Source: Methylobacterium sp. FF17
Lineage (GTDB): Bacteria > Pseudomonadota > Alphaproteobacteria > Rhizobiales > Beijerinckiaceae
Assembly (NCBI RefSeq): GCF_025813715.1
Contig: NZ_CP107534.1
Location: 1 to 64,000 of the forward strand
Length of the DNA stretch: 64,000 nucleotides
Direction: 5' to 3'
Shown here: in pieces, positions 6,530-46,072 of the stretch
How the letters are laid out: each line of letters starts with the position of its first letter
Numbering within the stretch: position 1 is the stretch's first letter
Translations under genes and position numbers: made by a program
Notes under the pieces: generated by a model
The model's input: only the letters and a program-made list of their open reading frames with translations
Told to the model about the DNA's origin: nothing
Databases searched by the model: none

Positions 6530-6548
6530 GACATGCTCTTCATCCCCC

Positions 6549-9645: not shown

Positions 9646-9717
9646 AGCTAGCTTTTCCAGAACGACGGGCTTTTTCCGGAGCCCTATGCGTTGTCGGCCA
9701 CCAACAAGGAGGCCTTC

Positions 9718-9909: not shown

Positions 9910-9932
9910 CGGTCACGCGCGCTCATTGTTCA

Positions 9933-9960
9933 TTAACCATACGATCCCCATATAAGGATC
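9933..9960 (+). promoter_or_regulatory. TTAACCAT half site plus GATCC...GGATC dyad, severed by IS1182
   Basis: TTAACCAT (9933-9940) is followed by GATCC-N8-GGATC (9943-9960). The same arrangement occurs intact at 23168-23195 upstream of the second CtrA copy. Here the IS element inserted 25 bases further on has cut it from whatever it controlled. Confidence 0.45.
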
Positions 9961-9985
9961 ATACCGATCGCTGCTCCACAGCTAG

Positions 9986-29793: not shown

Positions 29794-30429
29794 CAAGTGT
29801 GCGATCAGATTATCTAACTCGGCGCAGGCTTTCGGGTCTTTAGGGTTCAGCTCGTGGACGCAGACACCCTGGCCGGCGGCATTGGCAAAGGCCTTCCGGC
29901 GAACAATCGGCGTGTCCAGGTACTCTAAGGCAGGCCAATCTCCGATGGCCGCGGCTGCGTCGACGTTGTCAGTCGAGGTAAACCCGGGGTCCGCCAAGTT
30001 GAGCACTGCGTAGGCCTTCAGCCCGTCACGCACGCTGCGAGCCTCATCAATCAGGTCAGAGATCTGCTGCAGCGCCCAGACGTCTAGGCTACGCGGCTGG
30101 AACGGGACGAGCAGCACGTCGCTCAGTACCAAGGCAGCACGCAGCGCAGTGGAGTCCCGGCCGCCGGCGTCGATGATGATTACGTCGTGTTTGGACCGCT
30201 GGTGCTGGATCTGGCCGCGCAGGGTCTGCCCGTCGGCGTACTGAGCAACCGCGATGCCAGGCTGTTGTCCACTATCGGTACGGATGGTGATGGCGGTCTG
30301 GCTGGTTCCCTGGCGGTCACCATCGACTAACCACACATCGCGGCCAGACGCGGCCAGAGCGCAGCTGAGATTGATGGATAGGGTGCTCTTGCCGACGCCT
30401 CCCTTTGTTGCCCCTATCGTGACGATCAT
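29788..30429 (-). CDS. parA: ParA-family partition ATPase
   Basis: A 213-residue ParA/MinD ATPase. The deviant Walker A reads TKGGVGKST at residues 8-16, Walker A-prime DGDRQGTS follows near 40, and the Walker B strand is DVIIIDAGG. It lacks the N-terminal helix-turn-helix of type Ia ParA, so it belongs to the short type Ib group, whose partner is typically an RHH protein. That fits the downstream gene. The start has GGGGGTGAC upstream; six codons further on there is an alternative ATG. Confidence 0.92.
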   Translation of the reverse strand: MIVTIGATKGGVGKSTLSINLSCALAASGRDVWLVDGDRQGTSQTAITIRTDSGQQPGIAVAQYADGQTLRGQIQHQRSKHDVIIIDAGGRDSTALRAALVLSDVLLVPFQPRSLDVWALQQISDLIDEARSVRDGLKAYAVLNLADPGFTSTDNVDAAAAIGDWPALEYLDTPIVRRKAFANAAGQGVCVHELNPKDPKACAELDNLIAHLF

Positions 30430-30442
30430 TGTCACCCCCTTT

Positions 30443-30454
30443 TTCATATTAAAA
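30443..30454. promoter_or_regulatory. TTCATATTAAAA motif, copy 2, upstream of parA
   Basis: This 12-mer lies 14 bases upstream of the parA start, a good position for an operator or centromere. It is followed by CCCGTGATCG. Confidence 0.45.
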
Positions 30455-30717
30455 TCCCGTGATCGTTATCGGCTAATGATGGCGGATTAACAAGGGATTG
30501 AGCGCGGCCGCCAAAGGGCGCCGACGGCCTGCTGGCTGTCGCTTAGCCGGATGTCACCGCGTTACAGCCTGGATGGCTTCGGCCTCCTAAGAGGCGCTGG
30601 CGGCCTTCTCGCTGGCTCTAGGCTGCTGCCCGGTAGCTAGCTCAGCCTCTAAGGCCTGTCGTCGCCTGAACAGATTGGCTGGGCTTGCGTTTTCGTCTCT
30701 CTGATGGAGGAGGGACG

Positions 30718-31484
30718 ATGCTGAGCGACGCGCAATGGGCTGATCTGGAGCCTCTGATTGAAGCCTGCCGGCCCAAGGCCAAAACGCCTCCGCAGGATCT
30801 GCAGCGCACGCTCTCGGCCATTCTCTGGCGGCATCAGAACGGGGCCAAATGGCGGGCCATTCCCGAGGAATTGGGACCCTGGTGGCGGGCCGCCCAGATC
30901 TTCATCCGCTGGTCGCGTGCCGGCGTCTGGGAGCGGCTTCTTCACCTCGTGCAGGAACGCGGCGTCCAACTCGGCATGGTGTTCCTCGACGGCACGAACG
31001 TGCGGGCGCACCAAAAGGCGGGAGCCGCCAAAAGGGGGGATCTGCGGCCGAGCGAGACGCTCGTGAAGCTCTTGGCCGCTCGCGTGGTGGCTATGGCACC
31101 AAGGCTTGCGTGATCGCCGACGGGCAGGGCCGCGCCATCGCCTTCCGGCTGGCGCCCGGTCAGGCCTATGAACTCCCTCACGCTGTTCCCCTGCTCGATC
31201 AACTGCCGGGGGTGCCCAAATGGGTCGTGGGAGACCGCGGCTATACCAGCCACGTCTTTCGCGAACACATCTGGGACATGGGCGCTCGGCCTGCAATCCC
31301 GCCTTAGCGCCACGAAGCGCCCGTGGCCTGCCCGGATTGGATCTACAACAACCGCAACCAGGTCGAGCGCCTCTGGGCCAGGCTCAAGGAGTGGCGCGCC
31401 ATCGCCACCCGCTACGAGAAGACCGCCGTCAGCTTCATGGGCGTCCTCTACCTCGCCGCCGCCCTCGATTGGCTCAAGCGATGA
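30718..31484 (+). pseudogene. IS5-family transposase in two frames with a nonsense codon
   Basis: A transposase of the IS5 family read in two frames. The first (30718-31113) has MLSDAQWADLEPLIEACRP, WRHQNGAKWRAIPEELGPWW and VFLDGTNVRAHQK. The second continues with GGYGTKACVIADGQGRAIAF, VVGDRGYTSHVF and YNNRNQVERLWARLKEWRA to 31484. The switch lies at CCAAAAGGGGGGAT (about 31029), a slippery run consistent with programmed -1 frameshifting in this group. Independently, a TAG at 31305 interrupts the second frame before RHEAPVACPDW, so the gene is probably dead. Terminal repeats were not found. Confidence 0.85.
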
Positions 31485-31620
31485 CACGCCCTGGACGAGC
31501 AACTCCGTTACGATAGGAGCGGCTGGGCTCGCCGGCCTGAGGGGCAGCATCTAGAGCGGCCTCGGTGACGCGGAATTGTTCGTTGATTTGCTCAATAGGC
31601 GACAGCGTCAAAAATTGAAT

Positions 31621-31649
31621 TAATATTAAAAACATTGTTTTTAATATTA
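31621..31649. promoter_or_regulatory. Perfect 13-bp inverted repeat, AT-rich
   Basis: TAATATTAAAAAC and GTTTTTAATATTA flank ATT. The core matches the TTCATATTAAAA motifs of the par region. There is no GC stem, so it is more likely an operator than a terminator. It lies 73 bases before the gene at 31722. Confidence 0.5.
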
Positions 31650-31721
31650 TATCACCCGTAAAACAAACTAACACTACATTAGGCGGATAATTACGTTTCG
31701 ACTGACGGAGGGGCTAAGGGA

Positions 31722-32117
31722 ATGGGAGAAAATGAGCTGAGGGAACCGCCTGATCGTGGCGCCCTGGAGCGCTACGCCAATGTCGTCCGGCGCCTCGAAG
31801 CGGTAACCAGCGAGCGCGGGCGATCGTTCGACATGGATGGGTTATTCGCGCTGGCGGAGTACGACGAGGCACGAGAGATGGCTTACGCGCTCGGCTTGGT
31901 CGGGGGAGGGCTGTCGGCCGACGGCCTCGACGCCATAGATCGACGCCCGCTGAGTGCCTGGGCGCTATGCCCTGCGGCGAGGTACGCCCGCCTACACGCG
32001 CTCTGGCGCTGCGAGCGGCACACGCACCCACCTGGCAGCCTGGTGCAGGCGGTTATCGCTTCAGGAGCCCTGTCTAAGGCAGGCCGGCCCCCGCAATTCA
32101 GAGTGCAGTTGGAATAA
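31722..32117 (+). CDS. Hypothetical protein
   Basis: A 131-residue protein, mostly helical: ALERYANVVRRLEAVTSERG, LFALAEYDEAREMAYALGLVGGGL, and RYARLHALWRCERHTHPP. GAGGGGCTAAGGGA upstream supports this start. It sits after a long AT-rich dyad. The sequence is not one I recognise; it may belong to the plasmid backbone. Confidence 0.5.
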   Translation: MGENELREPPDRGALERYANVVRRLEAVTSERGRSFDMDGLFALAEYDEAREMAYALGLVGGGLSADGLDAIDRRPLSAWALCPAARYARLHALWRCERHTHPPGSLVQAVIASGALSKAGRPPQFRVQLE

Positions 32118-32157
32118 CGGTATTATATCGCTTTACCGCTTTAAAACAATACAATCT

Positions 32158-32169
32158 TCATATTAAAAA
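32158..32169. repeat. TTCATATTAAAA motif, copy 3
   Basis: Third copy, 41 bases after the stop of the gene at 31722. Confidence 0.4.
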
Positions 32170-32289
32170 AACTTGGCAGCTGCTACCCTGCTCGCCGAGA
32201 CGATGACCGCCCAGGCCGATGGGGCCTAGCTGCTGACAGGGCGCCTGTACGCTGCCGACGCATTGCTAGAGCGCACGACCGGCCGGATT

Positions 32290-32562
32290 GAGGAGGTGTT
32301 CCTGGTCAAGTTCCGCAGGCTGTCGATGGTGTGCATCATCTCGACAAGCGAGCGACCAAGCCGATCGAGTTTCCACACGACGAGCACGTCGGTGGGCCGA
32401 AGGTAGGCGGGGGCTGCCTCGAACTCGGGGCGCTTGGTCCCGGCCTTGCCAGACTTCTTCTCCTCGAACAGGCGTTCGCACCCGGCCTTGGTGAGCGCAT
32501 CGCGCTGTAGGGCGAGGTTCTGGTCGAGGGTGGAGACGCGGGTATATCCGACGAGTATGTCG
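32290..32562 (-). pseudogene. Truncated serine recombinase
   Basis: About 90 residues of a resolvase N-terminal domain without start or C-terminal half: GYTRVSTLDQNLALQRDAL with the active Ser, ERLFEEKKSGK, RPTDVLVVWKLDRLGRSLVEMMHTIDSL. An ATA stands where the start Met is expected and the frame decays after LRN. It differs from the intact resolvase at 19638, so it is a separate remnant. Confidence 0.75.
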
Positions 32563-32671
32563 GGATAGTGATTCAGGCGCGTTTAATCAGAAATAGAAAA
32601 CCGGTCATGTTTTTCCGACATAAAGCGGCTGTTTTGAGGAGGCTTGAACTGAGCTCCGAGAGGATGACGGG

Positions 32672-32755
32672 AAAACGATCGGATATCCGACACATCGTTC
32701 AGGTTGCTATCGACCCTTCACAGACCCTCGGAAGGTCCATTTCGGGGCAGCTTGG
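32672..32755 (+). repeat. 84-base repeat, copy 1
   Basis: Matches 52513-52595 with about ten differences. Contains CGGATATCCG (palindromic) and GTCGACCC-like sequence. It overlaps a short open frame (32568-32807) that is not conserved in copy 2, so the repeat is probably non-coding. Confidence 0.6.
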
Positions 32756-32836
32756 CGAACGAAGATTTATTGCCGTCACGGGTAGTTTCCAGCCCGTCCG
32801 CATCTAGGTGCCTCTGGCTGAAAGCGGACCTATCGC

Positions 32837-33106
32837 TCAGCCCGCTTGCTCTTCGTCGTCCTCCTCAGGAACGACAGCGCTGAACGGCACCGTCAGAACG
32901 CTGTTGCCATTCTCATCCTGGATCTCAAAGGAGCAGACGAACCAATCGCGGATGACGTCTGTCCGTGTTCTGGCAATATGATCACGTGCTGTATCCAACG
33001 CGCGCTCACGCGCTGCGTTCAAGTCGTGAAACTCCTCGCCTTCCAGGTCAACCTCTAATCCAGCAGGTCCTTGGCGATGCCGTAGATTAAAAAAGTAGTG
33101 CGGCAT
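32837..33106 (-). CDS. DUF6894-family protein
   Basis: An 89-residue protein with the DUF6894 pattern: MPHYFFNLRHRQGPAGLEVDLEGEEFHDLNAARERALDTAR, then DWFVCSFEIQDENGNSVLTVPFSAVV. It is a small alpha/beta protein of unknown function, very frequent in Methylobacterium. Its ATG lies just before the stop of the upstream Crp gene, so the two form an operon. Two further members lie at 47473 and 50342. Confidence 0.85.
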   Translation of the reverse strand: MPHYFFNLRHRQGPAGLEVDLEGEEFHDLNAARERALDTARDHIARTRTDVIRDWFVCSFEIQDENGNSVLTVPFSAVVPEEDDEEQAG

Positions 33107-33107
33107 C

Positions 33108-33821
33108 TCATGAGCCCTCAATCAAGCGAGCGTACTCAGCTTCGGGTACTCCATAACAACCATCGGCAAGTGCGACCAAGCCTTCGCGGTTCAACACTGT
33201 GATGCACCCGCGCCGTGCCTTGATGAGAAGATTACTTTCTAGTGTTTGCACCGCCAACGTTGCGCCGGAGCGCCGAACCCCGAGCATGATCGAAAGAAAT
33301 TCGTGGGTGACTGGGATGTCGTCACCATCCAAGCGGTCGTGACAGATCAGGAGCCAGCGAGCCAAGCGAACGTCTATGGTGTAGGCGGCGTTCGCATACG
33401 CGGTGTGTCGCGCCTGGATTAGCGTGGTTTGCAAATAGCGCAGCATCAGGGTGCGCAAGGTCGAGCTACGATCGACGGCCGCGCGGAAATGGGCTGTACT
33501 GACGACGAGCACCTCGCCAGGACATTGTACGAACTCGTGGTACGGCGCGCTGACGCTGTCGAGCAGTACGGGCGAAAGGCCAACCAGCCCCTCGCGCCCG
33601 ATGACGCCAACCTCAATGCGACTGCCGGCGACATCTGCCACGACAGAGGTGTAACCCACTTCAGGAAAGAAGAGCTGCGTCACCGGCTCATAGGGCCTGA
33701 TCAGCGTCTGACGCATCCTGGTCGGCAGCAGCTTAAGGCACGGCTGCAACAGCGCGTAGTCGTCAACGGACATACGCTGCAGCAAGCGATTTCGCACGCC
33801 AGATTGTTGAGACTGAACCAT
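33108..33821 (-). CDS. Crp/Fnr-family transcription regulator
   Basis: A 237-residue regulator: a cyclic-nucleotide-type sensor domain (about 30-145; FFPEVGYTSVVADVAGSRIEVGVIGREGLVG) and a winged helix (about 160-225; VTHEFLSIMLGVRRSGATLAVQTLESNLLI). The recognition helix has LGVRRSGAT, common to a Crp subgroup in Rhizobiales. No Cys cluster. The DUF6894 gene overlaps its end, so it may control or be controlled with that protein. A long AT-rich region precedes it. Confidence 0.88.
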   Translation of the reverse strand: MVQSQQSGVRNRLLQRMSVDDYALLQPCLKLLPTRMRQTLIRPYEPVTQLFFPEVGYTSVVADVAGSRIEVGVIGREGLVGLSPVLLDSVSAPYHEFVQCPGEVLVVSTAHFRAAVDRSSTLRTLMLRYLQTTLIQARHTAYANAAYTIDVRLARWLLICHDRLDGDDIPVTHEFLSIMLGVRRSGATLAVQTLESNLLIKARRGCITVLNREGLVALADGCYGVPEAEYARLIEGS

Positions 33822-34103
33822 AGGCTCTTACTCTCCTCATAGGAGCAAGAGCGCACCGTCTCCTAGCCGCCGGCGCTCGAATTCTCGTGCAGACGATGGC
33901 AACGACGTAGGGTATTGATAAATATTTGCAATGTGATCCGCGAAAATTATTGTGAATAAATTTGTGCGGTATCGTACTTTCTATGAGTTCGGTTTCTGAC
34001 CAAGTTTTCTAAATTATTTACCCGCAATGTAATCCATGATCATATCATAATATTAGCGGCGTTCGCCTCTGGGGCGACAGGTAGCCCTTTCCTGGAACAT
34101 TGC

Positions 34104-34511
34104 ATGGACCTTCTTGTACACCGTCCCGTCGTGCTTCTCGCCGAAGCTGATACCATCGTTGCCGAAGATCTGGGTGATGCCCTGGAGCAGGCGGGCTACC
34201 GCGTGCTGGGACCGTTTGCGACCACCGCTGAGGCATTGGCTGCCATCGAGTGGGAAAACCCTTCTTTTGCGGTTCTGGACGTCAGGCTCAGAGAGGGGTT
34301 CTGTACTGCCCTTGGACACAAGCTGCGCCAACGGAGCATCCCGATCCTAGTCCACTCGGGCCTGCAGCAGGATGATCCCCGCGCTTTGGCTTTTCGGGAG
34401 ATGCCTTGGTTCTGCAAACCAGCATTGCCTAAGGACATCATTTCAGCCCTGAATGAATTAGCCTCTCAGGGTTCACCAATGAGTGCTGAGAAGGGTGAGC
34501 GATGCGCCTGA
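34104..34511 (+). CDS. Single-domain response regulator
   Basis: A 135-residue receiver without output domain: VVLLAEADTIVAEDLGDAL (acidic pocket as E-x-D), phospho-acceptor Asp in FAVLDVRLREG, Thr/Ser position in ILVHSGLQQD and Lys in WFCKPALPKD. Such stand-alone receivers pass phosphate or bind partners; in Rhizobiales they often pair with HWE kinases, and one lies at 16.3 kb. The next gene overlaps the stop by 10 bases, so it is translationally coupled. Confidence 0.88.
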   Translation: MDLLVHRPVVLLAEADTIVAEDLGDALEQAGYRVLGPFATTAEALAAIEWENPSFAVLDVRLREGFCTALGHKLRQRSIPILVHSGLQQDDPRALAFREMPWFCKPALPKDIISALNELASQGSPMSAEKGERCA

Positions 34512-34867
34512 TGGTTCTAGTGAAGGCGACCGCTGAGAGCGAGGCAGGCATCATGCCGTCGCGCGAGCTTCTGGAGGCAATGGGTAAGTTCAACCAGGAC
34601 CTCCTCGCAGCTGCAATCCTCCTGGCTGGCGATGGTCTTCACCCTTCCTCGAGGGGAAAGCGGATCGCCTTTGATGGTCAGGAACGCACGGTCATGGATG
34701 GCCCCTTCTCCAGGACGAAGGAGTTGGTCGCCGGCTACTGGATCTGGCAGGTCAAGGACATGGTCGAAGCGGTCGAGTGGGTGAAGCGCTGTCCCAACCC
34801 GATGCCCGGTCCCAGCGAGATCGAGATCCGCCCGTTGTACGAGCTATCCGATTTTGCATTGACCTGA
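34502..34867 (+). CDS. YCII/DGPF-domain protein
   Basis: A 121-residue protein of the YciI/DGPF family: MRLMVLVKATAESEAGIMPS, GKFNQDLLAAAILLAGDGL, then the motif MDGPFSRTKELVAGYWIWQVKDM and EIEIRPLYE. The fold is a ferredoxin-like dimer. Members are often paired with extracytoplasmic sigma factors; here the partner is a response regulator. Enzymatic activity is uncertain. Confidence 0.85.
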   Translation: MRLMVLVKATAESEAGIMPSRELLEAMGKFNQDLLAAAILLAGDGLHPSSRGKRIAFDGQERTVMDGPFSRTKELVAGYWIWQVKDMVEAVEWVKRCPNPMPGPSEIEIRPLYELSDFALT

Positions 34868-35185
34868 ATGATTGGCTCGCACTTCAGGTCATATCCGACA
34901 GAGCAAAGCGTCCAGACCAAGCGAACGTTCGACATCGCGTATGTAGGCAGCCCCTGTCTTCATCGAGGCAGTTCGATTTCTGATCCTTAGAGGCGAAGTA
35001 GGTGCCTTCGGTTGTATATTCACGTATTCGTGAGAAAAGAGCATTGAGAACTTGCGTGTGGTTCACATTATTTTAGGCGCGGTTTGCTAGCACCTCGGCA
35101 ACTGATGTGCTGAGAATGATCGCAAATGCTAGCAGGCACTACACATCCTCGGGTTATTTCGCCGCAGCCTGATCACACGCCAACA
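34868..35185. other. Intergenic region before the MCP-like gene
   Basis: About 320 bases without a supported gene. The part 35010-35080 is AT-rich and likely contains the promoter for the signalling genes downstream. Confidence 0.35.
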
Positions 35186-36214
35186 ATGACGCATGTCGCT
35201 TCGGAAACGGCCGCGTTGATCAAGATCGCGGCCGACAAGACGCGCAGCATCCAGGCCGTCACCGGACAGGTGAAGATGCTGGCGCTCAACGCCCTCATCG
35301 AGGCCGCCCGCGCGGGCGAGAACGGGCGTGGCTTCTCTGTGGTCGCACAGGAGGTCCGTGCGGTCGGGGTCCAAGTCGAGGACATCGCAAAGGCACTGGA
35401 TGCCGAGCTTGCTGGGCGCATCACGGGTTTGCAGCACATGGTGCAGCACATCACCAGCGCAGCGCAGGATGAGCGCCTGGTCGACCTCGCGCTGAACGCG
35501 GTCGAGCTGATTGATCGCAACCTCTATGAGCGGACGTGTGACGTGCGCTGGTGGGCCACCGACAGTGCCGTTGTCGATTGTGCGGCCGCGCCGGATGCAG
35601 AGCGAGTCGCCTACGCGACCCAGCGCCTTGGCATCATCCTCTCGGCCTACACCGTCTACCTCGATCTCTGGCTCTGTGCGCTCGATGGCACCGTCATTGC
35701 CAGCGGCCGACCGGAACGCTACCCAAGCGTTGTCGGCCGGAACTTCGTCAATGAGAGCTGGTTCCAGCAAGCCCGAGGGCTGAAGGATGGAGACGGCTAC
35801 GTTGCTGCGGACGTGACTCGTCAGGATCTTCTCGGAGGCCAGCAGGTTGCGACCTACTGTGCAAGTGTCAGGGAAGGCGGTCGCGTACAGGGACGAGAGC
35901 TAGGCGTGCTCGCCATTCACTTCGATTGGGAGCCGCAGGCGCGCGCCATCGTAGAAGGTGTGCGAGTAGCGCCGGCTGATCGAGCTCGCACACGGGTCCT
36001 GCTTGTGGATGCCAACAAGCGCGTCCTCGCGGCCTCCGATCGGCAAGGCGTGCTGAGCGAGCGCTTATCCTTTGATTCGGGTCATACGTCCAATGGCAGC
36101 GTACGCGATGCTCGAACTGGCACGGTCACCGCGTTCCATCGGACGCCGGGCTACGAGACCTACGCTGGCCTTGGTTGGTGGGGCGTGATCGTTCAGCACA
36201 AGGAACACACATAG
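35186..36214 (+). CDS. Soluble MCP-type protein with C-terminal Cache domain
   Basis: A 342-residue protein without transmembrane helices. Residues 1-75 contain the conserved tip of a methyl-accepting chemotaxis signalling domain: VTGQVKMLALNALIEAARAGENGRGFSVVAQEVRAVG. The remainder is a Cache-like sensor (about 125-340; LDLWLCALDGTVIASGRPERY, VGRNFVNESWFQQA, LLVDANKRVLAASD). The order is the reverse of normal receptors, where the sensor is N-terminal, and only half of the MCP hairpin is present. It may connect ligand sensing to a signalling array or to the c-di-GMP genes next door. Start taken at MTHVASET; a longer frame is less likely. Confidence 0.82.
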   Translation: MTHVASETAALIKIAADKTRSIQAVTGQVKMLALNALIEAARAGENGRGFSVVAQEVRAVGVQVEDIAKALDAELAGRITGLQHMVQHITSAAQDERLVDLALNAVELIDRNLYERTCDVRWWATDSAVVDCAAAPDAERVAYATQRLGIILSAYTVYLDLWLCALDGTVIASGRPERYPSVVGRNFVNESWFQQARGLKDGDGYVAADVTRQDLLGGQQVATYCASVREGGRVQGRELGVLAIHFDWEPQARAIVEGVRVAPADRARTRVLLVDANKRVLAASDRQGVLSERLSFDSGHTSNGSVRDARTGTVTAFHRTPGYETYAGLGWWGVIVQHKEHT

Positions 36215-36501
36215 TCGACAGGACGCCGACATGGATGACGCGACGACAGGCGTGGCGGTTCGAACACGCGATATGACAGCTGTCCAGGTAGATCTCAGCG
36301 ACTAACGCTTCTGCGCGATCAGCATGGTCCAGACACAGCATCTAGGTTTCCGCGGACGTGCTGTGGCCGCTTATGCGAATCGCTCAGCGCGAGTAGAACA
36401 CCACGCAACTCTCGCGCATGGGTTTTGTGGGCCCGTTTATTCATAAAGCGCAAAGTAGTGCCGTGTGATCGTCCTGAGGGCTACGGCTTGAGGAAGCTGT
36501 G

Positions 36502-37314
36502 ATGAGTAAAATTGGGTGTGCTGGATGCCAGGGCGGCGAGGCGCTGCCCTTTGCGTTCACTATGGCATTCCACCCCATCGTCAACGTTTCCCTCGGAAGG
36601 GTCTGGGGCTACGAGGCCTTGGTGAGAGGGACCGAGGGCCAAGGGGCCGGTCAAATCTTGGGGATGGTCGACGACACCAACCGATACAAGTTCGATCAAG
36701 CCTGCCGCGTCAAGGCGATCGAGCTTGCCGGCGCCCTGTTTCCAGACGCCGAGACCCGGCTCTCGATCAACTTTATGCCTAACGCTGTGTATGAGCCGGC
36801 CGCCTGCATCCGCGCGACGCTGGAAGCGGCCCGACGCGTCGGTTTTGCGCACCGGCAAATCATGTTCGAGTTCACCGAGAACGAGCGCATGACCGATGTG
36901 GCTCACGTTCAGCGCATCATCACCGAGTATCGCAAACACGGCTTTGCTACCGCGCTCGACGACTTCGGGGCAGGCTACGCCGGCCTCAATCTGCTGGCGA
37001 ACTTCCAGCCGGATTTTATCAAGCTGGACATGGAGCTGATCCGCGGTATCGCCACCTCGGCGGCTCGTCAGACCATCGTTGCTTCTGTGGTTACGATGGC
37101 CCGTACGTTGGGGGTGGCAGTGATCGCTGAAGGCATCGAGACGGAAGCGGAGTTGGCGACGCTCCGGGCAACCGGGATCGAGCTGTTCCAGGGTTATCTC
37201 TTCGCCAAACCAGCCGTGGCCTGTCTGCCGGCGGCGTGGTTCCCTCAGCGTGACGGCGTGGGTTCAAGCCCTACATCGGCTGCCACCGCCGCGATTTCTG
37301 CACACGCAGCTTGA
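36502..37314 (+). CDS. EAL-domain c-di-GMP phosphodiesterase
   Basis: A 270-residue protein that is nearly all EAL domain. Motifs: EAL at about residue 39 (GYEALVRG), the metal-binding Asn in SINFMPNA, EFTENE, DDFG at about 153 in LDDFGAGYAGL, and AEGIETEAEL. Residues needed for hydrolysis of c-di-GMP to pGpG appear present. An N-terminal CxxC (CAGCQG) precedes the domain. It begins a four-gene operon with 27 bases to the PYP gene. GTG one codon before the ATG is an alternative. Confidence 0.92.
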   Translation: MSKIGCAGCQGGEALPFAFTMAFHPIVNVSLGRVWGYEALVRGTEGQGAGQILGMVDDTNRYKFDQACRVKAIELAGALFPDAETRLSINFMPNAVYEPAACIRATLEAARRVGFAHRQIMFEFTENERMTDVAHVQRIITEYRKHGFATALDDFGAGYAGLNLLANFQPDFIKLDMELIRGIATSAARQTIVASVVTMARTLGVAVIAEGIETEAELATLRATGIELFQGYLFAKPAVACLPAAWFPQRDGVGSSPTSAATAAISAHAA

Positions 37315-37341
37315 GCAGCACGGAACGGATAAGGCGCTGCC

Positions 37342-37698
37342 ATGCTCTCCTTCGAAGCCATCACCCCTGACACTCTCGACACTATGGGAACCGAACAGCT
37401 CGATAGGCTGCCTTTCGGGGTTGTTGGCCTATCGTCCGAGGGGTTGGTCGAGATCTACAATGCGACGGAGGAGCGCCTAGCCGGCCTGCCTCGCGAGACC
37501 GTGATCGGCACGCACTACTTCTCCGTGACGGCCCAGTGCATGAACAACTTCATGGTGGCGCAGCGCTTCGAGGATGAAGCGGAGATCGATGCAATCATCG
37601 ACTACGTACTGACCCTGCGCATGCGCCCGACCCCCGTACGTCTTCGTCTCCTGAAGGCGTCTGGAATGGAACGGCACTTCATCCTTATCCAACGCTGA
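37342..37698 (+). CDS. pyp: Photoactive yellow protein (PYP)
   Basis: A 118-residue PAS photoreceptor that aligns with Halorhodospira PYP with an offset of three and no gap through the chromophore pocket. The residues that bind the p-coumaroyl chromophore are present: Tyr39 (Tyr42 in PYP, in EIYNATE), Glu43 (Glu46) and Cys66 (Cys69, in YFSVTAQC). Met94 in RMRPTP aligns with Met100. Thr50 is Ala47 and Arg52 is Leu49, changes that often shift absorption and cycle speed. The Cys forms the thioester; blue light isomerises the chromophore. The EAL and GGDEF genes either side give a c-di-GMP context. Confidence 0.9.
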   Translation: MLSFEAITPDTLDTMGTEQLDRLPFGVVGLSSEGLVEIYNATEERLAGLPRETVIGTHYFSVTAQCMNNFMVAQRFEDEAEIDAIIDYVLTLRMRPTPVRLRLLKASGMERHFILIQR

Positions 37699-37709
37699 GT
37701 GAGGCTGCC

Positions 37710-38996
37710 ATGACCTCCGAGCTCGAAGCCGAGAACGCAGCCCTGCTGCAGTTCCTCTATGCCTGTCCGGCTGGTCTGATCGAATTCTCAGCCACAGGCG
37801 GCATCGGCATGGTCAATCCGGCCGCCATGAACCTTCTGCTGCCAATTGCAGGGCGTCCCTTCGTCACCAACCTCTTCGAGGTGATGGAGGGCTGCGCCCC
37901 CGAATTGCGCAACATGATCCAGCGGTTCGAGTCCGTTCACGGTGCGATCTGTGACGGTCACCGCATCGTAACCGGCCGCGGAGACCGAGCGCTGGTCCTG
38001 GCCTGCAGCGTCGTGAAGCTGACCCAGGAGCGCTACATCGCGACTTTGTCAGACGTCACCGAGCAGGTCGTCCGAGAGCGGCGCTTGAAGCAAGCGGAAG
38101 CGTGGTTTGCTTCGCTCCTCGATGGTGTCGACGACGTCGCCGTGCTTTCGCTCGATGCGAACGGCTGCATCGACGCCGTCACGGAGTCGATTTTGCGTCA
38201 GACAGGCTTTGCCGAGGCCGAGTTGCTGGGTCGTCGGTTCGAGGCCTTCGACCGCCCGGACCGAGCTACGGCGATGCCACTCCCCGGCGAGGCCATCACG
38301 ATTGCGCGTCGCGACGGTTGGCACTTACACGAGGGCTGGCATGCCCGCGCCGATGGCGGGCGCTACTGGTGCCAGCGCCTGGTTGCCGTACGTGATCACG
38401 CAGAGGAGCCTACGGCTGGCTTCACCCTGGTGATGCGGGCGGTGACGCGGCAGGGAAAGGACGCCGCTGATCTGCGAAGGATGCTGACCCGTGATCACCT
38501 TACGGGTGCCAGCAATCGAGCGCACTTTTTCGAGGCGGCGGAACGTCAACGTGTGCGATCGCTCCAAGGCGGGGAGTCGATGGCCGTCATCGTCCTCGAT
38601 GTCGATCACTTCAAGCGTGTGAACGACGGATATGGGCATGCGGCCGGGGATACGGTGCTTCGTGAGGTAGCACAGCGTTGCGAGGCCGAGCTGCGCCCAG
38701 AGGACATCTTCGCACGCCTGGGCGGCGAGGAGTTCGTAGCGCTTCTGCCAAGTACCACCTTGGCGGTGGCGGCTGTGACAGCCAATCGCCTGCGTATGGC
38801 ACTTGCCTGCGAAGCGGTGGATTGCGGCGAGACCCAGCTGAGTATCACAGCGAGCTTCGGCTGCAGCGCCCTTGATGTGGCGCCTGCTGCATCCCTCGCT
38901 GAGCTCCTCGCGGCGGCCGACGCAGCCCTGTATCAAGCCAAGCGTACTGGGCGTAATCGGGTCGTCTCCTTCGAAGCCGATCAGGCCGCTGCCTGA
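37710..38996 (+). CDS. PAS-PAS-GGDEF diguanylate cyclase
   Basis: A 428-residue soluble cyclase. PAS 1 (about 8-125) has FLYACPAGLIEFSATGGIGMVN; PAS 2 (about 135-250) has LLDGVDDVAVLSLDANGCIDAV. GGDEF (about 265-425) has VIVLDVDHFKRVNDGYGHAAGD and the active motif GGEEF near residue 337. RPED five residues before it is an intact I-site. The gene follows PYP after 11 bases, suggesting co-expression; a contact of PYP with the PAS domains is an inference. With the EAL gene, the operon can make and break c-di-GMP. Confidence 0.93.
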   Translation: MTSELEAENAALLQFLYACPAGLIEFSATGGIGMVNPAAMNLLLPIAGRPFVTNLFEVMEGCAPELRNMIQRFESVHGAICDGHRIVTGRGDRALVLACSVVKLTQERYIATLSDVTEQVVRERRLKQAEAWFASLLDGVDDVAVLSLDANGCIDAVTESILRQTGFAEAELLGRRFEAFDRPDRATAMPLPGEAITIARRDGWHLHEGWHARADGGRYWCQRLVAVRDHAEEPTAGFTLVMRAVTRQGKDAADLRRMLTRDHLTGASNRAHFFEAAERQRVRSLQGGESMAVIVLDVDHFKRVNDGYGHAAGDTVLREVAQRCEAELRPEDIFARLGGEEFVALLPSTTLAVAAVTANRLRMALACEAVDCGETQLSITASFGCSALDVAPAASLAELLAAADAALYQAKRTGRNRVVSFEADQAAA

Positions 38997-39013
38997 TCGA
39001 ACTGGCCCCATTG

Positions 39014-40222
39014 ATGCTCTCCCGCCGTTCGCTCAAGACCGTTCTGCAGAGCCTGCTCAGCGCAGAACTTTTGGCTGCGCGTGGTCGCGGCAATTCAGGT
39101 GCACGATTACCGACCCATCTATCGTCGGAGTGGCTGGAGGTCACACGCATCGGGAGCGACACAACATCTGGCTTCGGATGCGACTCGCTCGAGACGTTGT
39201 GGCTCGCATCAGCCGTCAACGAGATGTTCCACCTGCACGAGGCGAATGGCGAGGAGAAGCTGCTTTCCGATGCGACGTTCGGCGATTGGATCGATCGCAT
39301 CGAGGCGGCTTGGCGATCTGGCGTCGCTAGGGTCACTTTCACCACCTCGGGAACGACGGGACAGCCGAAGCGATGCCCACACACGGCCGAGGCCTTGCAC
39401 GTGGAAGCCTCGTTCCTCGCAGACCTGTTTCGAGATAGACGCCGCATCGTTTCTCTGGTGCCGAGCCATCATGCCTATGGCTTCCTGTTCACCGCGCTCC
39501 TACCCGACGTGCTCCGAGTTCCCCATCTCGATGCAGTGCGCCTCGATGCAGCGGAACTGAGCCGTCGGCTTGAACCAGGCGACCTCCTCGTCACTTTTCC
39601 CGATCGCTGGCGATGGCTGGAGCGCTCCCTCAGGGCCTGGCCTCCAGGCGTCGAGGGTGTCGTTTCAACAGCCCCATGCCCTCCAGATTTGATTGAATCG
39701 CTCTGTCAGAGCGGCCTCGCGGCGATGACGGAAGTGTACGGGTCCTCCGAGACGGCAGGGGTGGCCGTGCGGCGCTGGCCAACGGCGACGTACCAGCTTA
39801 TGCCGCATTGGCGCTTCATCGAGCCCGTCCACGAGGATCTTCCCGAGATCATTCATCAGAGCGGACCACGCTTTCCCCTCCCGGACCGCATCAGCCATCA
39901 GGGCCGGGATCATTTCCACCTAGCAGGGCGCCTCGACGGCGCTGTCCAGGTTGGGGGCATCAACGTCTTTCCCGCTCGCATTGCAGCTCGTCTCTCCGGG
40001 CAACCGGGCGTTCATGAAGCCGCCGTCCGACTCATGCGTTCCGATGAAGGCGCTCGCTTGAAGGCGTTCATCGTACCCGAGCCTGACGCCGATCTGACGG
40101 CGCTACGATCAGACCTTGAGATATGGATCGGCGCTACATTGCCCGTGGCCGAGAGACCGATGATGATCAGTTTTGGCCCTCGCCTTCCAATCGGCATGAT
40201 GAGCAAAGCGGCCGACTGGTAA
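39014..40222 (+). CDS. AMP-forming acyl-CoA ligase, likely p-coumarate-CoA ligase for PYP
   Basis: A 402-residue ANL-superfamily enzyme. Motifs: FTTSGTTGQPK (about 108-118), YGSSETAG (about 242), GRLDGAVQVGGINVFPARI (A8) and the catalytic Lys near 398 in MMSKAADW. At about 400 residues it is shorter than ordinary ligases of about 500. PYP needs p-coumaroyl-CoA to acylate its Cys, and in Rhodobacter a short p-coumarate ligase is encoded beside PYP. The position 14 bases after the cyclase and the operon support this assignment. Substrate is inferred, not shown by sequence. TTG one codon before the ATG is possible. Confidence 0.8.
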   Translation: MLSRRSLKTVLQSLLSAELLAARGRGNSGARLPTHLSSEWLEVTRIGSDTTSGFGCDSLETLWLASAVNEMFHLHEANGEEKLLSDATFGDWIDRIEAAWRSGVARVTFTTSGTTGQPKRCPHTAEALHVEASFLADLFRDRRRIVSLVPSHHAYGFLFTALLPDVLRVPHLDAVRLDAAELSRRLEPGDLLVTFPDRWRWLERSLRAWPPGVEGVVSTAPCPPDLIESLCQSGLAAMTEVYGSSETAGVAVRRWPTATYQLMPHWRFIEPVHEDLPEIIHQSGPRFPLPDRISHQGRDHFHLAGRLDGAVQVGGINVFPARIAARLSGQPGVHEAAVRLMRSDEGARLKAFIVPEPDADLTALRSDLEIWIGATLPVAERPMMISFGPRLPIGMMSKAADW

Positions 40223-40448
40223 CTATTTACCCTTGGACTGATCCTTTTAACTCGTTGTATGCAAGACGTTCCTCCTATTGGGTTATGTGTCAGCTGTACG
40301 ATCTTTTGTTGATACATAACCGCCCAGAACTTTGACTGATGCGACCCAAGTGCGCGGTGTATCTAAAACGATAGAAGCCATGGAAGGGATTAGCTCTACG
40401 TTCGTAATTCTCCCCCATCATCGCTAGAAGAAGAACGTGGGTTACGAA

Positions 40449-42218
40449 ATGGCAAGCACCCAATCAGAGAACGCGAGGCTTCAAGCACTCAAGCAACTGA
40501 GGCTTCTCGATACGCCTCCTGCCGAAAGCTTTGATCGCATCACCCGGATGGCAAGCCAGCTATTCGATCTACCTGTCGCTGCCATATCACTGACAGACAG
40601 CGATCGGCAGTGGTTCAAATCACGGGTTGGCGTCGAGCACTGGGAGATCCCGCGGGATCGAGCGCCCTGCGGTGAGGTGACGGATACAACCAGTTCCCTG
40701 ATGATCCCCGACCTACTGGAACATCCCTGCTACCGGAACAGCCCGCTGGCTCAATCCGGAATACGGTTCTACGCAGGTGCACCGCTTACCACGCGCGAAG
40801 GGTTCTGCCTGGGTGCCATGTGTGTCCTGGGCACGGAACCGCGCCAGATCTCTGGGCAGGAACAGGGAGCACTCACCGATCTTGCCGCCATGGTCATGGC
40901 TCAAGTCGAACTTCAGCACGCGTTCGGACGGGTCGACGCTGTCACGGGGCTACCCAACCGTCACCAGCTTCTTGAGGATCTCCACGATCAAGCGTCCGAG
41001 GCAGATGGACAGCCGCGTCACCTCGCGCTGGCTGAGGTCATCGATGCTCTCAAGATGTCCGATACTGTACGTGTCCTTGGTATCGGGATCATCGAGGATC
41101 TGATGCGAGAGGCGACCCGTGTCATTTCCATCAACCTCGGGATCTCAACGCAACTCTACCATGTCGGCTCGGCCCAATTTGCTTGGATTGTTCAAGCTCC
41201 ACGCGGCGAGAGCAAGCTGGAGGATGGCTTTCAGCACCTGAGCGAACAGTTGCTCAGACATCTAAGCTCAGCGCCGGTACGGGTATCGTTGAACCCCGTC
41301 ATTGGGGTTGCACCCCTTGGGGTTGGTCAGAGCCTCGGTGAGGACGCGATCCGCATGGCACATAATGCGGCTCAGGAGGCACGTCTGACAGGCCATCCGG
41401 TAAGCATCTACTCAGTGGCCGCTGACGACCATCATCGGAGGCGTTTCAGGCTCCTGAGCGACATGCGTGCCGCGCTGATCACCGGGCAGGAGCTTTCGCT
41501 CGTCTATCAGCCGCGCATTGATCTGAGCACGGGAGCATGCATCGGCGTAGAGGCACTCATCCGCTGGAAACACCCCGAACTCGGCGCAGTTTCACCGGGA
41601 GAATTTATTCCGCTCGTTGAACAGACCGATCTGGCTGGCCCGCTCACAGCGTGGGTGATTGCCGCAGCCATTCGGCAGATCGTTGCTTGGCGAGCGATGG
41701 CAATAGATCTGGCCGTCTCGGTCAATGTCTCAGTGGCGAACTTGGACCAGCCGCACTTTGCTACCGACCTTATCGACCAACTGCGAAAGGCCGGTGTTAA
41801 TCCTTCTGTCTTTGAGGTCGAAGTTACAGAGAGCGCTCTCATTAAGAACCGTTCGCATGTTGAGGAGCAGCTTCGGACGCTCCAGAACGCAGGTATCCGC
41901 GTGGCGATCGACGATTTTGGAACCGGTTACAGCAGCCTCTCATACCTAAGGCACCTCCCGGCAAACATTGTGAAGATCGACCAGTCCTTTATCCGAAATC
42001 TTGCGGAGGATCTGAAGGGCCAAACCCTCGTTCAGCATCTCATCGAATTGTCGCAAAGGCTTGGCTTCCGAGTTGTGGCGGAAGGTGTTGAGAGCAAAGA
42101 GGCTTACGAGATCCTTAGGTGCTGGCGGTGTGAAGAAGCACAAGGCTACTGGATGTCGCGGCCGCTCGTACCAGCCGATTTGCAGTCCTGGCTAGAGACG
42201 AAAATTTTTGGTATTTAA
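40449..42218 (+). CDS. GAF - degenerate GGDEF - EAL phosphodiesterase
   Basis: About 589 residues. The GAF domain (about 15-160) has FDRITRMASQLFDLPVAAISLTDSDRQWFKS. The GGDEF-like domain (about 165-310) lacks the signature: HVGSAQFAWIV stands in place of GGDEF, so it should not make c-di-GMP but may bind GTP. The EAL domain (about 330-585) has EALIRWKHPE (about 368), NVSVANL, EVTESALI, DDFGTGYSSLSYL and AEGVESKEAY, so hydrolysis is expected. It lies after the PYP operon but has its own 220-base leader. Confidence 0.93.
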   Translation: MASTQSENARLQALKQLRLLDTPPAESFDRITRMASQLFDLPVAAISLTDSDRQWFKSRVGVEHWEIPRDRAPCGEVTDTTSSLMIPDLLEHPCYRNSPLAQSGIRFYAGAPLTTREGFCLGAMCVLGTEPRQISGQEQGALTDLAAMVMAQVELQHAFGRVDAVTGLPNRHQLLEDLHDQASEADGQPRHLALAEVIDALKMSDTVRVLGIGIIEDLMREATRVISINLGISTQLYHVGSAQFAWIVQAPRGESKLEDGFQHLSEQLLRHLSSAPVRVSLNPVIGVAPLGVGQSLGEDAIRMAHNAAQEARLTGHPVSIYSVAADDHHRRRFRLLSDMRAALITGQELSLVYQPRIDLSTGACIGVEALIRWKHPELGAVSPGEFIPLVEQTDLAGPLTAWVIAAAIRQIVAWRAMAIDLAVSVNVSVANLDQPHFATDLIDQLRKAGVNPSVFEVEVTESALIKNRSHVEEQLRTLQNAGIRVAIDDFGTGYSSLSYLRHLPANIVKIDQSFIRNLAEDLKGQTLVQHLIELSQRLGFRVVAEGVESKEAYEILRCWRCEEAQGYWMSRPLVPADLQSWLETKIFGI

Positions 42219-42519
42219 AATGCCGCATAGATAGCACTTTATCATCCTCCTCTTTTTATGAAAACGAATACATCAGAAATTGCTATTGGTTCAATGTATG
42301 CTTTTCGCGCGGCATCAAAATAATTAGGGTTCGCAGGCTGTCCGTTTTAAAGGTTGCGCGTAGTGAAGCGCCCTTCCATCTTATCAGTCGACACGCCAAT
42401 GGAGGTACGGATCTCGGCCTGGGGTGTGATCAAGCTGAGGAGGTTGCACATGGCTCAGGTCCTCAACGGCAGGCCCGCTGTGGTAGGACAACCCATTGCA
42501 CCGAGCTTTGCCCGGGACG
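42219..42519. other. Intergenic region, no gene seen
   Basis: Two converging genes end here. The first 100 bases are AT-rich with TTTTTATGAAAACG; no hairpin with a T-run was found. Confidence 0.35.
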
Positions 42520-43698
42520 TCATGGATTAGAGGCCTCAGCGGGCACGCGCCAGAGGAGGTCGGCGGGGCCTGCATCGGCGAGGATATGGGCAGCCGCGCT
42601 GGTGAGCGCCCGGTCGGGGCCGGGCTGGCGCAGGTAGGTCGCGAGATCCCGGGTCAGCCGCTCCAAGGGATGCGGTGCCAGGAACCCGGAGAGCCCCACC
42701 GAGCGCTGGGTGCGTTCCAGGACGTCGAGCCCGGCCCGCTCGACCGCCAGCCGGGTCAGGTTGACGTAGGCGATGACCCGGGCCGGATCGGCCTCGGGGT
42801 CGCTGGCGAGCCGCGCCGCCTGTGTGACGAACAGGCGAGCCGTCTCCACAGCGATCGCGGCCTCGCCGAGACGGGCCGCCTGGTGCGGGTCGCCGCCCCG
42901 TCCGGTTTGCCCGAGATGGTCCCGCAGGGCATCGAACACCGCCTCGACGCCCCCGAGCTGCACGGCGGCGAAGCGCCAAGCCCCGCCGGAGAAGTGCGGT
43001 TCGGCAAAGTAGGCGTCGGGACCGCCAACGAATCCGCCGGGGTCGGCGGGCAGCCCCGTGAAGTCGAGGATGCCCGAGTGCGAGGCGCGCATGCCCTGCG
43101 CCCGCCAGCCCGAGAGGTCGGCCCGGGTTCCGGCCTCCAGGTCCACCACCATCATCTGCTGGCGCCCGTCGGGCCGGCGCGCGGTGACGAGGGGGCGGGT
43201 GACGGAGCCGGCACCGGAGGCGAAGGACTTGACCCCGCGCAGCGTCGCTGCGCCGTCCGCCTCCTCGAGGGTGAGGCCGCCCGCCTGAGGCTGCGTGTTC
43301 CAGACCCCGAACAGGTGGCCGTCGCAGGCGTCGCCCGCCAGGCGTTCGGCCACCGCCGGCTCGGCGTAGCGGACGACGAGGGCCAGCGCGTTGACATGCC
43401 CCTCGTAGAGCCGCCCGAGGGCGAGGCTGCCGCGCCCGATCTGCGCCAGGAGATCGGCGAGAGCCGGCGCCATCTCCGGCGCATCGAGGCCGCCTCCCCC
43501 CAGGGCCACCGGCAGCGGCGCAGCGAGCAGGCCCGTCGCGTGGGCGTGGGCGATATCCTCTGCGGGAAACCCGCCCTCCCGGTCGAGGGCATCGGCACGC
43601 TCGGCCGCGCGGCGCGACACCGCGCGCGCGGCGGCCCTGATCCGGGCCGGGCCGGTCTCGATACGGTCGTGGGGGACGAAGTTCATGCGAAGGGACAT
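42520..43698 (-). CDS. Acyl-CoA dehydrogenase family protein, high-GC insert
   Basis: A 392-residue flavin enzyme of the acyl-CoA dehydrogenase superfamily. The N-terminal helices include FPAEDIAHAHATGLLAAPLPVALGGGG (family-like), the middle barrel DACDGHLFGVWNTQPQAGG, and the C-terminal helices ETARLFVTQAARLASD and ERTQRSVGLSGFLAPHPLERLTRDLATYL. The catalytic base is not obvious, so the reaction (dehydrogenase or DszC/SfnB-type monooxygenase) is open. The gene is much richer in G+C than its neighbours and all six frames are open, which suggests a different origin. An alternative ATG lies four codons in. Confidence 0.85.
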   Translation of the reverse strand: MSLRMNFVPHDRIETGPARIRAAARAVSRRAAERADALDREGGFPAEDIAHAHATGLLAAPLPVALGGGGLDAPEMAPALADLLAQIGRGSLALGRLYEGHVNALALVVRYAEPAVAERLAGDACDGHLFGVWNTQPQAGGLTLEEADGAATLRGVKSFASGAGSVTRPLVTARRPDGRQQMMVVDLEAGTRADLSGWRAQGMRASHSGILDFTGLPADPGGFVGGPDAYFAEPHFSGGAWRFAAVQLGGVEAVFDALRDHLGQTGRGGDPHQAARLGEAAIAVETARLFVTQAARLASDPEADPARVIAYVNLTRLAVERAGLDVLERTQRSVGLSGFLAPHPLERLTRDLATYLRQPGPDRALTSAAAHILADAGPADLLWRVPAEASNP

Positions 43699-44078
43699 GG
43701 ATCACGCCCGCGCGACCGCCAGATGGTCTTCGTCCACGAAATCTGATTTTCCGTTCGCAGCGAAGAGCAAAAGCCAGCGCTGGGGCTCAGCCTGCATCGG
43801 TGCATCCATAAAACTGACTGCAACAGGGTCTCGTAGCCCGGCGTCCAACGGAATGCGGTCTCCATGCCCGTTCGGGCATCGCGCACGCAGCCATTGGACG
43901 TAGGACCCAGCTCAAGGGACAATTCTGGTCGGCCATTAGGGCCGGAGGATCATGGATACGTTGTGGTCGCCGAAGAGGTATCTACGCCAAGATGCTCACC
44001 ATCTGTTGAACATCTACGAAGCTGGAATGAACCAAAAACGAGCGTTGTTCTCGTCGAGATTGCATCGAGGCGGAGCCC
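43699..44078. other. Remnant-rich stretch next to the high-GC insert
   Basis: Holds the MCP/Cache fragment on the minus strand (43818-43925) and otherwise no supported gene. The bases around 43930-44040 have no recognised function. Confidence 0.4.
43818..43925 (-). pseudogene. MCP/Cache gene fragment
   Basis: On the minus strand, PTSNGCVRDARTGMETAFRWTPGYET matches HTSNGSVRDARTGTVTAFHRTPGYET near the end of the MCP-type protein at 35186. Only this part (about 35 residues) remains; it ends next to the high-GC insert. A paralog of that gene was therefore once present here. Confidence 0.7.
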
Positions 44079-44606
44079 ATGACCTTGCAAGCGCCAGTCC
44101 GCTACAACCCAAACGTCGAACAGGTGAAGGCCGACGAAGGAGAAACGATCGACCAGCTGAACGAGACCTTCGACAAGATCCTGAAGATCGTGGCCGATGA
44201 CTCAGGACATGCGGTCCGGTCCGTGCACGCCAAGTCGCACGGCATCCTGGAAGGGGTTCTGACGGTCGACGCGAACCTGCCCCCCGAGCTGGCGCAGGGC
44301 CTGTTCGCCAAGCCCGGCGAGCACCAGGTCTACATGCGCCTGTCCTCCAATGCCGGCGACATCCTGCCCGACGCGGTCTCCCTGCCGCGTGGTCTCGCGC
44401 TCAAGGTTCTCGATGTCGAGGGCGAGCGCTTGGCCGGCGCCGAGGGTACGACGCAAAACTTCATCATGGTCAACGGCAAGGTCTTCCATGCGCCGAGCGC
44501 CAAGAAATTTCTCGGCAGTCTGAAGCTGTTGGCCGGCACCACCAACCGTGTGGAGGGCCTGAAGCTCGCGGTCTCAACAGCCTCGTTCCACGCTTTCAGA
44601 AACTAG
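44079..44606 (+). pseudogene. Truncated catalase-family protein
   Basis: The first 170 residues match the N-terminal half of catalase-related proteins (HSP/AKS-type heme-binding start: VRSVHAKSHGILEGVLTV, then GEHQVYMRLSSNAGD and GLALKVLDVEGERL, FIMVNGKVFHAP). The distal heme His is in the AKSHG segment. Family members are about 350 residues, and this one stops after LKLAVSTASFHAFRN, where PilZ begins on the other strand. It lacks the proximal Tyr, so a functional enzyme is unlikely. Confidence 0.75.
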
Positions 44607-44971
44607 AATGCCGAAACCCGGCTACGGCGAGCCCCAATCGCCTTGTACGATGCATCGGTAGTCCGGATATTCGCATCTTCGGCTTGTTCGACCTTTGATG
44701 CGATTTTGCCGAACTGCTCGATGTGAACGCCTACGAAGTTGTCTTTGCGCCACGCGACGGAGACACGGCAGACGAAACTCTTGCCTATCACCTTCAGCAT
44801 AAAGCTGTTTGGCAACTGGCAGGACGATGGCAGCCCGATCTTTGCGCCAGTTTTCGAAATGTCCTTGATGGTACAGGGGATCTCGATACCCTCGAATGTT
44901 CGGATGATCGCAATCCAATTAGTTTCGTTGCGCGCCGCTCGCTCAATTGAATCTGGAACATCGAATGACAT
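44603..44971 (-). CDS. PilZ-domain protein
   Basis: A 122-residue PilZ protein. The c-di-GMP-binding features are an RxxxR-type start (RAARNE) and DISKTGAKIG in the D-x-S-x-x-G position; RVSVAWRKDNFVGVHIEQFG forms the later strands. The first Arg pair is weaker than the consensus, so binding should be tested. As a c-di-GMP effector it fits the many cyclases and phosphodiesterases nearby. A TTAACC site lies 45 bases upstream (45016-45021). Confidence 0.8.
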   Translation of the reverse strand: MSFDVPDSIERAARNETNWIAIIRTFEGIEIPCTIKDISKTGAKIGLPSSCQLPNSFMLKVIGKSFVCRVSVAWRKDNFVGVHIEQFGKIASKVEQAEDANIRTTDASYKAIGARRSRVSAF

Positions 44972-45578
44972 ATGAGGCCGCCGAAAAACTTTTGCGCGGG
45001 ACTATTGCGCTTAAAGGTTAAGGGTTTATCTGGATAGCTCCTTCGAAGTACAATCTACTGATCACGGTTCCGTGAAAGACCGTTGTGGTTCAATAGCCGA
45101 TTTTCATGCTTCAGATTTTTCTGGGTGAAGAGTAGCTCTGCGCCTGTCATCTGGCACCAGCAAGACGGACCAGGAGGTGGTCGGTTTCCCTCCTGGTCCG
45201 CCCGACCGCGCTGTGCGCCGAGTAGTACACAGTCCGCTGCGATCGAGGCAGACGACCCTGCCCGGCTCCGACCGTCAACTCCTTTCGCGAGGTCGCCATC
45301 TCCTGCACCGCGGACCTCCGGACGTAATTCACCAACCATCGCATCGCTGCGCTGGCCTTGCCGGTCGCCAGGAGGATGGAATGATCGCTACCCTTGGGCT
45401 GGGCTCCTCCGCTTCGGCAGCATCTTGACCGGCTCCGCTGGCGAAACCGTCCTCAGAATTAACAGGCTATCCGTGGGGCGCATCGCTTTGCACCCTGTCG
45501 GCTTGACGTGCGCCACGGTGGCGCGCTCGCCCGATCTGGCGTGCTTCTCTGCGAACTGGCACCTTATAGGAAAGCATC
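44972..45578. other. Intergenic region with perfect hairpin and possible gene remnant
   Basis: CGGACCAGGAGG (45166-45177) pairs perfectly with CCTCCTGGTCCG (45189-45200). No T-run follows. A plus-strand stretch reading LLRFGSILTGSAGETVL (around 45397-45450) is protein-like but lacks start and continuity, so it may be a decayed membrane-protein gene. No complete gene. Confidence 0.4.
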
Positions 45579-45800
45579 ATGACGGACGATGACAGCGGCG
45601 CACAGGATCGTCGCGACACCAGGGCTGCCGGGCTTCTGCAGAGGGCACACATGGGAGCCGAGGCACGAGCAAATTACGAGGCTGCTCAGCAGGCCACCGA
45701 GGACAAGACGGTGCGCCTCAAGGCTCTGCGTCTGGCCAAGGAGATGGCGGACAAGAAGGCCGACGAGAAACCGGTTAAGAAGGCAGGCAAGAAGAAATAG
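45579..45800 (+). CDS. Small charged protein, paralog of the 13.8-kb gene
   Basis: A 73-residue highly charged helical protein. It shares QQATEDKTVRLKALRLAKE and the DDSGAQDRRDTRAA start with the gene at 13838 and has a longer Lys-rich end (EKPVKKAGKKK). The sequence before the ATG (CACCTTATAGGAAAGC) is like that of its paralog (CACCTTGTAGGAGAGC). Probably a nucleic-acid or partner-binding protein, but this is a guess. Confidence 0.65.
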   Translation: MTDDDSGAQDRRDTRAAGLLQRAHMGAEARANYEAAQQATEDKTVRLKALRLAKEMADKKADEKPVKKAGKKK

Positions 45801-45871
45801 CTCAATCTCTCGAGTGCAGGCCTGTCGCCGCATGGCTGAGAAACACCTGCGCGCGTTCCCATATGATCCCC

Positions 45872-46072
45872 ATGATCATCTTCACCCCCAATCCCCATTC
45901 CCTGCGGGTCACACCGTCCGCAACGGAGCCCGGTCGGTTCGACTGGACGATCTGGAAGGACAAAGAGGTGGTGCAGCGGTCAGTCCGGTCCTTCGGATCT
46001 GAGGGGGCCTCAGAGGCGGCCGGCGACACCGCCCTTCGAGCTGTCACCGCGGTCTGGCAGAACGCCAAATAG
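45872..46072 (+). CDS. Small hypothetical protein
   Basis: A 66-residue protein with two strands and a helix: MIIFTPNPHSLRVTPSATEPGRFDWTIWKDKEVVQRSVRSF, then SEAAGDTALRAVTAVWQ. The compact alpha/beta pattern is protein-like. An ATG three codons earlier is also possible. No family recognised; it is about 70 bases downstream of the charged-protein gene. Confidence 0.5.
   Translation: MIIFTPNPHSLRVTPSATEPGRFDWTIWKDKEVVQRSVRSFGSEGASEAAGDTALRAVTAVWQNAK

Follow-up and report, generated by a model that had tools for sequence, protein, structure and literature searches.

The window, the whole 64,000-nucleotide stretch of DNA that was analysed, comprises bases 1–64000 of a 66,721-base contig in a genome of 5.99 Mb. 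Four genes at 36499–40222, all on the plus strand, encode an EAL protein, a photoactive yellow protein (PYP), a GGDEF protein, and a ligase, and are separated by 27, 11, and 14 bases (Table 1). The tightly spaced set (11–27 bases) described in a sequence-only reading of the window is thereby confirmed, and its family assignments for the four proteins are supported by profile matches. The four genes are probably co-transcribed. A scan for sigma-70-like promoters finds 0 (0.8 expected from shuffles), terminator-like sites occur at chance level (3 versus 2.9 expected), and no Rfam family matches at gathering level within window positions 30000–46000. A gene for replication initiator A (PF10134, 256 bits) at 28339–29481 marks the contig as a likely plasmid. 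Upstream of the operon, at a distance of 284 bases, lies a gene (35126–36214, plus strand) whose product carries a short signalling stretch of the chemotaxis-receptor type close to its start, and a GAF-GGDEF-EAL protein, an additional c-di-GMP enzyme, is encoded 214 bases after the operon (40437–42218, plus strand). The same contig encodes a PF13557 protein (family name: phenol degradation; 57558–58430, minus strand).

Table 1 Genes of the operon, in window coordinates.
Feature	Position	Strand	Remark
EAL phosphodiesterase, standalone	36499..37314	+	start GTG 36499 or ATG 36502
Photoactive yellow protein (PYP), single-domain, 118 aa	37342..37698	+	group fitting published clade C
PAS-PAS-GGDEF diguanylate cyclase (DGC)	37710..38996	+	constant partner of PYP of this group
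AMP-forming 4-coumarate-CoA ligase (pCL), short	39011..40222	+	start TTG 39011 or ATG 39014

A scan of named genomes with a PYP alignment gives 267 relatives, of which the best-scoring 80 are analysed. The DGC directly follows PYP in 79 of these best 80 of 267 (78 loci by filter, including L069 with its cyclase frame in pieces, plus L073 with a longer cyclase, itself fused to an EAL domain), and the gap has a median of 10 bases in the 78 loci measured. In the 80th locus, L112, a pair reading as IS21-like istA/istB (8594–10494) lies between PYP and the cyclase. The adjacency rejects a chance neighbourhood of PYP and DGC, and such near-invariant pairing with one particular DGC supports the earlier proposal that this PYP is linked to c-di-GMP. 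When matches above 150 bits are counted in the flanks of the best 80 of 267 loci, pCL is near PYP in 57, EAL in 44, and both in 38; 23 have no ligase match and 36 no EAL match, with some flanks ended by contig ends. PYP and one DGC form the core, to which the EAL protein is an optional addition. Therefore, the description of PYP as bracketed by making and breaking of c-di-GMP holds for the window's branch and not for the core. The gene order of the window, for which a search in other genomes had been suggested, recurs in 11 of the best 80 of 267 relatives, and it is shared by two genomes of the same genus (G034 and G021), which have all four genes.

The nearest named relatives are from Methylobacterium. 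According to record titles, the best 80 of 267 include 31 Sphingomonas, 9 Methylobacterium, 17 Burkholderiales, 3 Salinisphaera, and 2 Acidobacteriaceae. A close stand-alone PYP is present in 3 of 37 same-genus genomes, the window's included, and among 385 genomes drawn from the class (up to 11 candidates scored per genome) a PYP of the window's group is found only in the window's own genome. A PYP relative occurs in 12 plasmid records; among the eight examined, the cyclase adjoins PYP in L044, L045, L046, L047, L048, L049, and L051 and does not in L050. At the DNA level, at least 80% of the operon is present in 0 of 71 plasmid records with a match. A scan of viral contigs gives one relative, at a contig end. 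As a contrast, six loci (five genomes, up to 1.5 kb on each side) with PYPs above the TIGR02373 cut-off have the ligase in 6/6 (one partial, 64 bits) and this DGC in 0/6; they are the six of ten loci that pass this cut-off, and the other four (L032, L033, L034, and L037) have neither ligase nor cyclase.

PYP distances correlate with those of the DGC (r 0.895, n 78), the ligase (r 0.915, n 56), and the EAL protein (r 0.890, n 43), indicating that the set is inherited together. The test does not single out the cyclase from the other partners; since its correlation is not stronger than that of the ligase, the result speaks for joint inheritance and not for contact. In the PYP tree, the Salinisphaera and Acidobacteriaceae rows are placed among alphaproteobacterial rows. 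This placement, together with the distance correlations, fits transfer of the entire set.

The DGC matches PF00990 with 137 bits and TIGR00229 above cut-off at residues 128–247. Its predicted structure has two PAS-like parts ahead of the GGDEF domain (pLDDT 82.9), and the low pTM of 0.51 leaves the domain arrangement not fixed. The GGEEF motif is present in 53/53 rows of alignment A3 (52 of 77 cyclases, in length range, plus the window; the frame of L069 is kept in pieces) and agrees with the GG(D/E)EF pattern, predicting an active diguanylate cyclase. The I-site noted in the sequence-only reading is there: R and D are both present in the window protein and are kept in 33/53 and 35/53 rows, respectively. 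Kinship of the first PAS with PYP is not supported, as its profile gives no match to the PYP profile (probability 5.2). Compared with the PDB, the same profile retrieves three kinase chains (E 0.025–0.091).

We propose, with a probability of about 0.7, that the operon lets blue light switch c-di-GMP, with PYP acting in trans on a dedicated cyclase. The ligase would activate p-coumaric acid as the CoA ester, which would load onto Cys66 of PYP. Blue light would then drive the PYP photocycle and alter the PYP surface, and the altered surface would affect, in trans, the PAS region of the PAS-PAS-GGDEF cyclase. The cyclase output would shift, changing the amount of c-di-GMP made, up or down, and the operon's own EAL enzyme would remove c-di-GMP and keep the signal short. 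The PYP-to-cyclase step, for which the evidence is the gene pairing, presumably involves physical contact of the two proteins. The output may be attachment or motility, possibly with a role on a plant surface.

The best family of the ligase is TIGR02372, a PYP-linked family (294 bits, versus 47.6 bits for the runner-up), in accordance with its earlier designation as the likely chromophore ligase. The score is below the TIGR02372 cut-off of 334.7 bits, which is passed in 0/3 genomes. Residues S112/G113, Y242/G243, and G315/V318 are present in 32/32 rows of alignment A5 (31 of 55 ligases plus the window; L057 is kept in two pieces), and the C-terminal K398 in 30/32 (numbering from ATG 39014).

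The source of the acid is less evident. In H. halophila, a lyase makes the p-coumarate needed by PYP, as described in a section of PMC12826048, where uptake of p-coumarate has also been raised for cases in which the lyase is missing. Aromatic ammonia lyase (PF00221) has no match in the window's genome (G000), G021, or G034, all three with ligase and PYP. Of 39 carrier genomes, 25 likewise have no match, and these include 20 of the 28 whose locus has a ligase match; the 39 were hand-picked for spread from the best 80 relatives, carry no completeness figures, and apparently include G034 and G021 again. In the flanks of the best 80 of 267 loci, at most 8 kb on each side, one lyase query finds no match. 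With no aromatic ammonia lyase, the dye acid may be scavenged from outside, uptake being the simplest reading for carriers without PF00221, and the switch would need both light and a phenolic from outside. A stricter version, in which a carrier must import p-coumarate and the switch detects the coincidence of light with a hydroxycinnamate from outside, a sign of plant material, is tentative and in our estimate falls somewhat short of even odds. It draws on the absences just described, but 14 of the 39 carriers, including the Methylobacterium carriers L058 and L065, have a PF00221 match, as do G705 (L042) and an Indioceanicola plasmid (L049), both with a PYP of the window's group. In a set of nine genomes or records, PF00221 matches in 8/9, among them 4/5 genomes with PYPs above the TIGR02373 cut-off. 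In the genus background, it matches in 16/59 genomes, carriers included, indicating that absence of the lyase is usual in the genus and not special to carriers. Moreover, Salinisphaera, a marine genus and thus not pointing to plants, has the set without the lyase, and p-coumarate could also come from a lyase that does not resemble PF00221 or by a different route. Because PF00221 also covers histidine lyases, a match does not prove that p-coumarate is made, and the absence of one is more telling. On the Indioceanicola profundi plasmid (L049), canonical PYP, ligase, lyase, PYP of the window's group, and its GGDEF protein lie in one run (1492–6637).

The dye residues of the window PYP are Y39, E43, and C66 (corresponding to Tyr42, Glu46, and Cys69), as the sequence-only reading had placed them, and each is kept in 61/61 rows of alignment A4 (60 of 75 PYPs plus the window), which rejects a PYP with a lost dye site. 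CMNN and LTLRMRP are invariant partly by construction, because relatives are fetched with patterns from those stretches; in alignment A2 (n = 12), gathered without these patterns, they are present in 11/12 and 12/12 rows, respectively, Glu and Cys in 12/12, and Tyr in 11/12, with Phe in place of Tyr42 in L048. Checked by profile and structure, the PYP assignment stands in its fold and dye residues and falls short in the TIGR02373 equivalog score (67 bits, cut-off 143 bits). The model covers about 20% of PYPs according to a passage of Xing 2022 (PMC9664959), and its cut-off therefore does not define the family.

In the alignment, Phe92, Phe96, and Trp119 are replaced by I86, L90, and F113, and Met100 is kept as M94; L90 and M94 are present in 61/61 rows of A4. 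This is the residue pattern given for clade C in Xing 2022 (Phe92, Phe96, and Trp119 not conserved, Met100 conserved). A PYP tree of 121 columns splits 91 rows (one locus twice) from 21 others with branch support 100/99, published clade C sequences not being entered as such. The three replacements, the Phe of L048, the score below TIGR02373, and the distance from solved PYPs (25–36% identity) could mean that light sensing has been lost from PYP in this branch, leaving a protein that simply partners the cyclase or senses a ligand for it. In the same direction, the window's genome has a second PYP-like domain (L038, G000:C1:2630353-2630661; 911-residue frame) that, by reading, seems to be without all three dye residues. 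However, the unbroken Tyr, Glu, and Cys of A4 and the retention of the ligase in 57 of the best 80 of 267 loci make this loss of light sensing improbable. Methylobacterial Ppr proteins that lost Cys69 are described in part of PMC9664959.

The EAL protein matches PF00563 with 174 bits. Residues E38, N90, E123, D153, D154, K174, E210, and Q230, which we take to be catalytic, are each present in 19/19 rows of alignment A6 (18 of 42 EAL proteins plus the window). Its nearest curated family is RimA (NF052265), but an output through a RimA-like regulator of ribosomal S6 modification instead of bulk c-di-GMP deserves very little credence, with 316 bits against a cut-off of 430 and with EAL unmatched in the 36 loci mentioned above.

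The blue-light switch for c-di-GMP is consistent with the genes and their order, the intact motifs of DGC, EAL protein, and ligase conserved in the alignments, the dye residues, the PYP fold, and the near-invariant PYP–DGC pairing, as well as with the EAL-fused cyclase of L073 and the run of canonical PYP, ligase, and lyase on L049. Against it stand the loci with no ligase or EAL match, the cyclase of plasmid L050 not adjoining PYP, the missing profile match between the first PAS and PYP, the low pTM, and, in a genome with no aromatic ammonia lyase, a chromophore source that is not evident. A more far-reaching reading is that PYP is the obligate detached light subunit of one DGC, in a cassette spread in bacteria of sunlit surfaces, with the dye borrowed from the surroundings in many carriers so that blue light is reported only where plant phenolics are present; taken as a whole, we regard this as unlikely.

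PYP–GGDEF/EAL/pCL operons and a c-di-GMP role are already in print in parts of PMC9664959 and PMC12826048, both of which propose a c-di-GMP output for PYP, citing a biofilm effect in Idiomarina; the output is thus less new than the earlier reading held. In the survey of Dohmen 2025 (PMC12826048, in part), 29 of 113 pyp operons have GGDEF, 22 EAL, and 42 pCL; the kinds of gene and the proposed output (c-di-GMP or biofilm) are those of the window. The sections of PMC12826048 at hand make no mention of the window's gene order or of plasmids, and mention Methylobacteriaceae only for fusion proteins. Clade C PYPs likewise lie beside GGDEF genes, with the same three residues not kept and Met100 kept; excerpts of Xing 2022 (PMC9664959) describe the clade as often beside cyclases and as mostly from Proteobacteria, especially Burkholderiales, whereas here the pairing holds in 79 of the best 80, with 31 Sphingomonas and 9 Methylobacterium next to 17 Burkholderiales. 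The pyp-pcl-TAL operon of Halorhodospira halophila, as told in part of PMC12826048, similarly gives PYP its own short ligase, but the window is without the tyrosine ammonia lyase (no PF00221 in G000) and has c-di-GMP enzymes added. In the Thermochromatium tepidum PYP–phytochrome–GGDEF/EAL fusion (passages of PMC12826048 and PMC9664959), PYP is also tied to c-di-GMP enzymes, in one chain with phytochrome, whereas the window has separate genes and an operon without phytochrome. In the proposed sense, SiaD–SiaC (PDB 7e6g) is alike in that a separate protein controls a diguanylate cyclase; no SiaC–PYP kinship is claimed.

Added here are the near-invariant PYP–DGC pairing, the joint inheritance, and the lyase missing from the window's genome and 25/39 carriers. 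PYP signal transmission is called an important gap in a section of PMC12826048, and no clade C PYP had been characterised according to a passage of PMC9664959; at abstract level, with few subscription papers, we noticed no experiment on a PYP–cyclase pair of the window's group. The near-strictly paired cyclase is a direct candidate partner for the PYP signal. If PYP is coloured only when p-coumarate is supplied, a bacterial light sensor would be using an outside compound, perhaps from plants, as its dye. A small light subunit that is separate from its cyclase might also be useful in the laboratory as a tool. In the public plasmid records L045, L047, L048, and L050, PYPs of the window's group are annotated as 'phosphonate transporter', an apparent misnaming.
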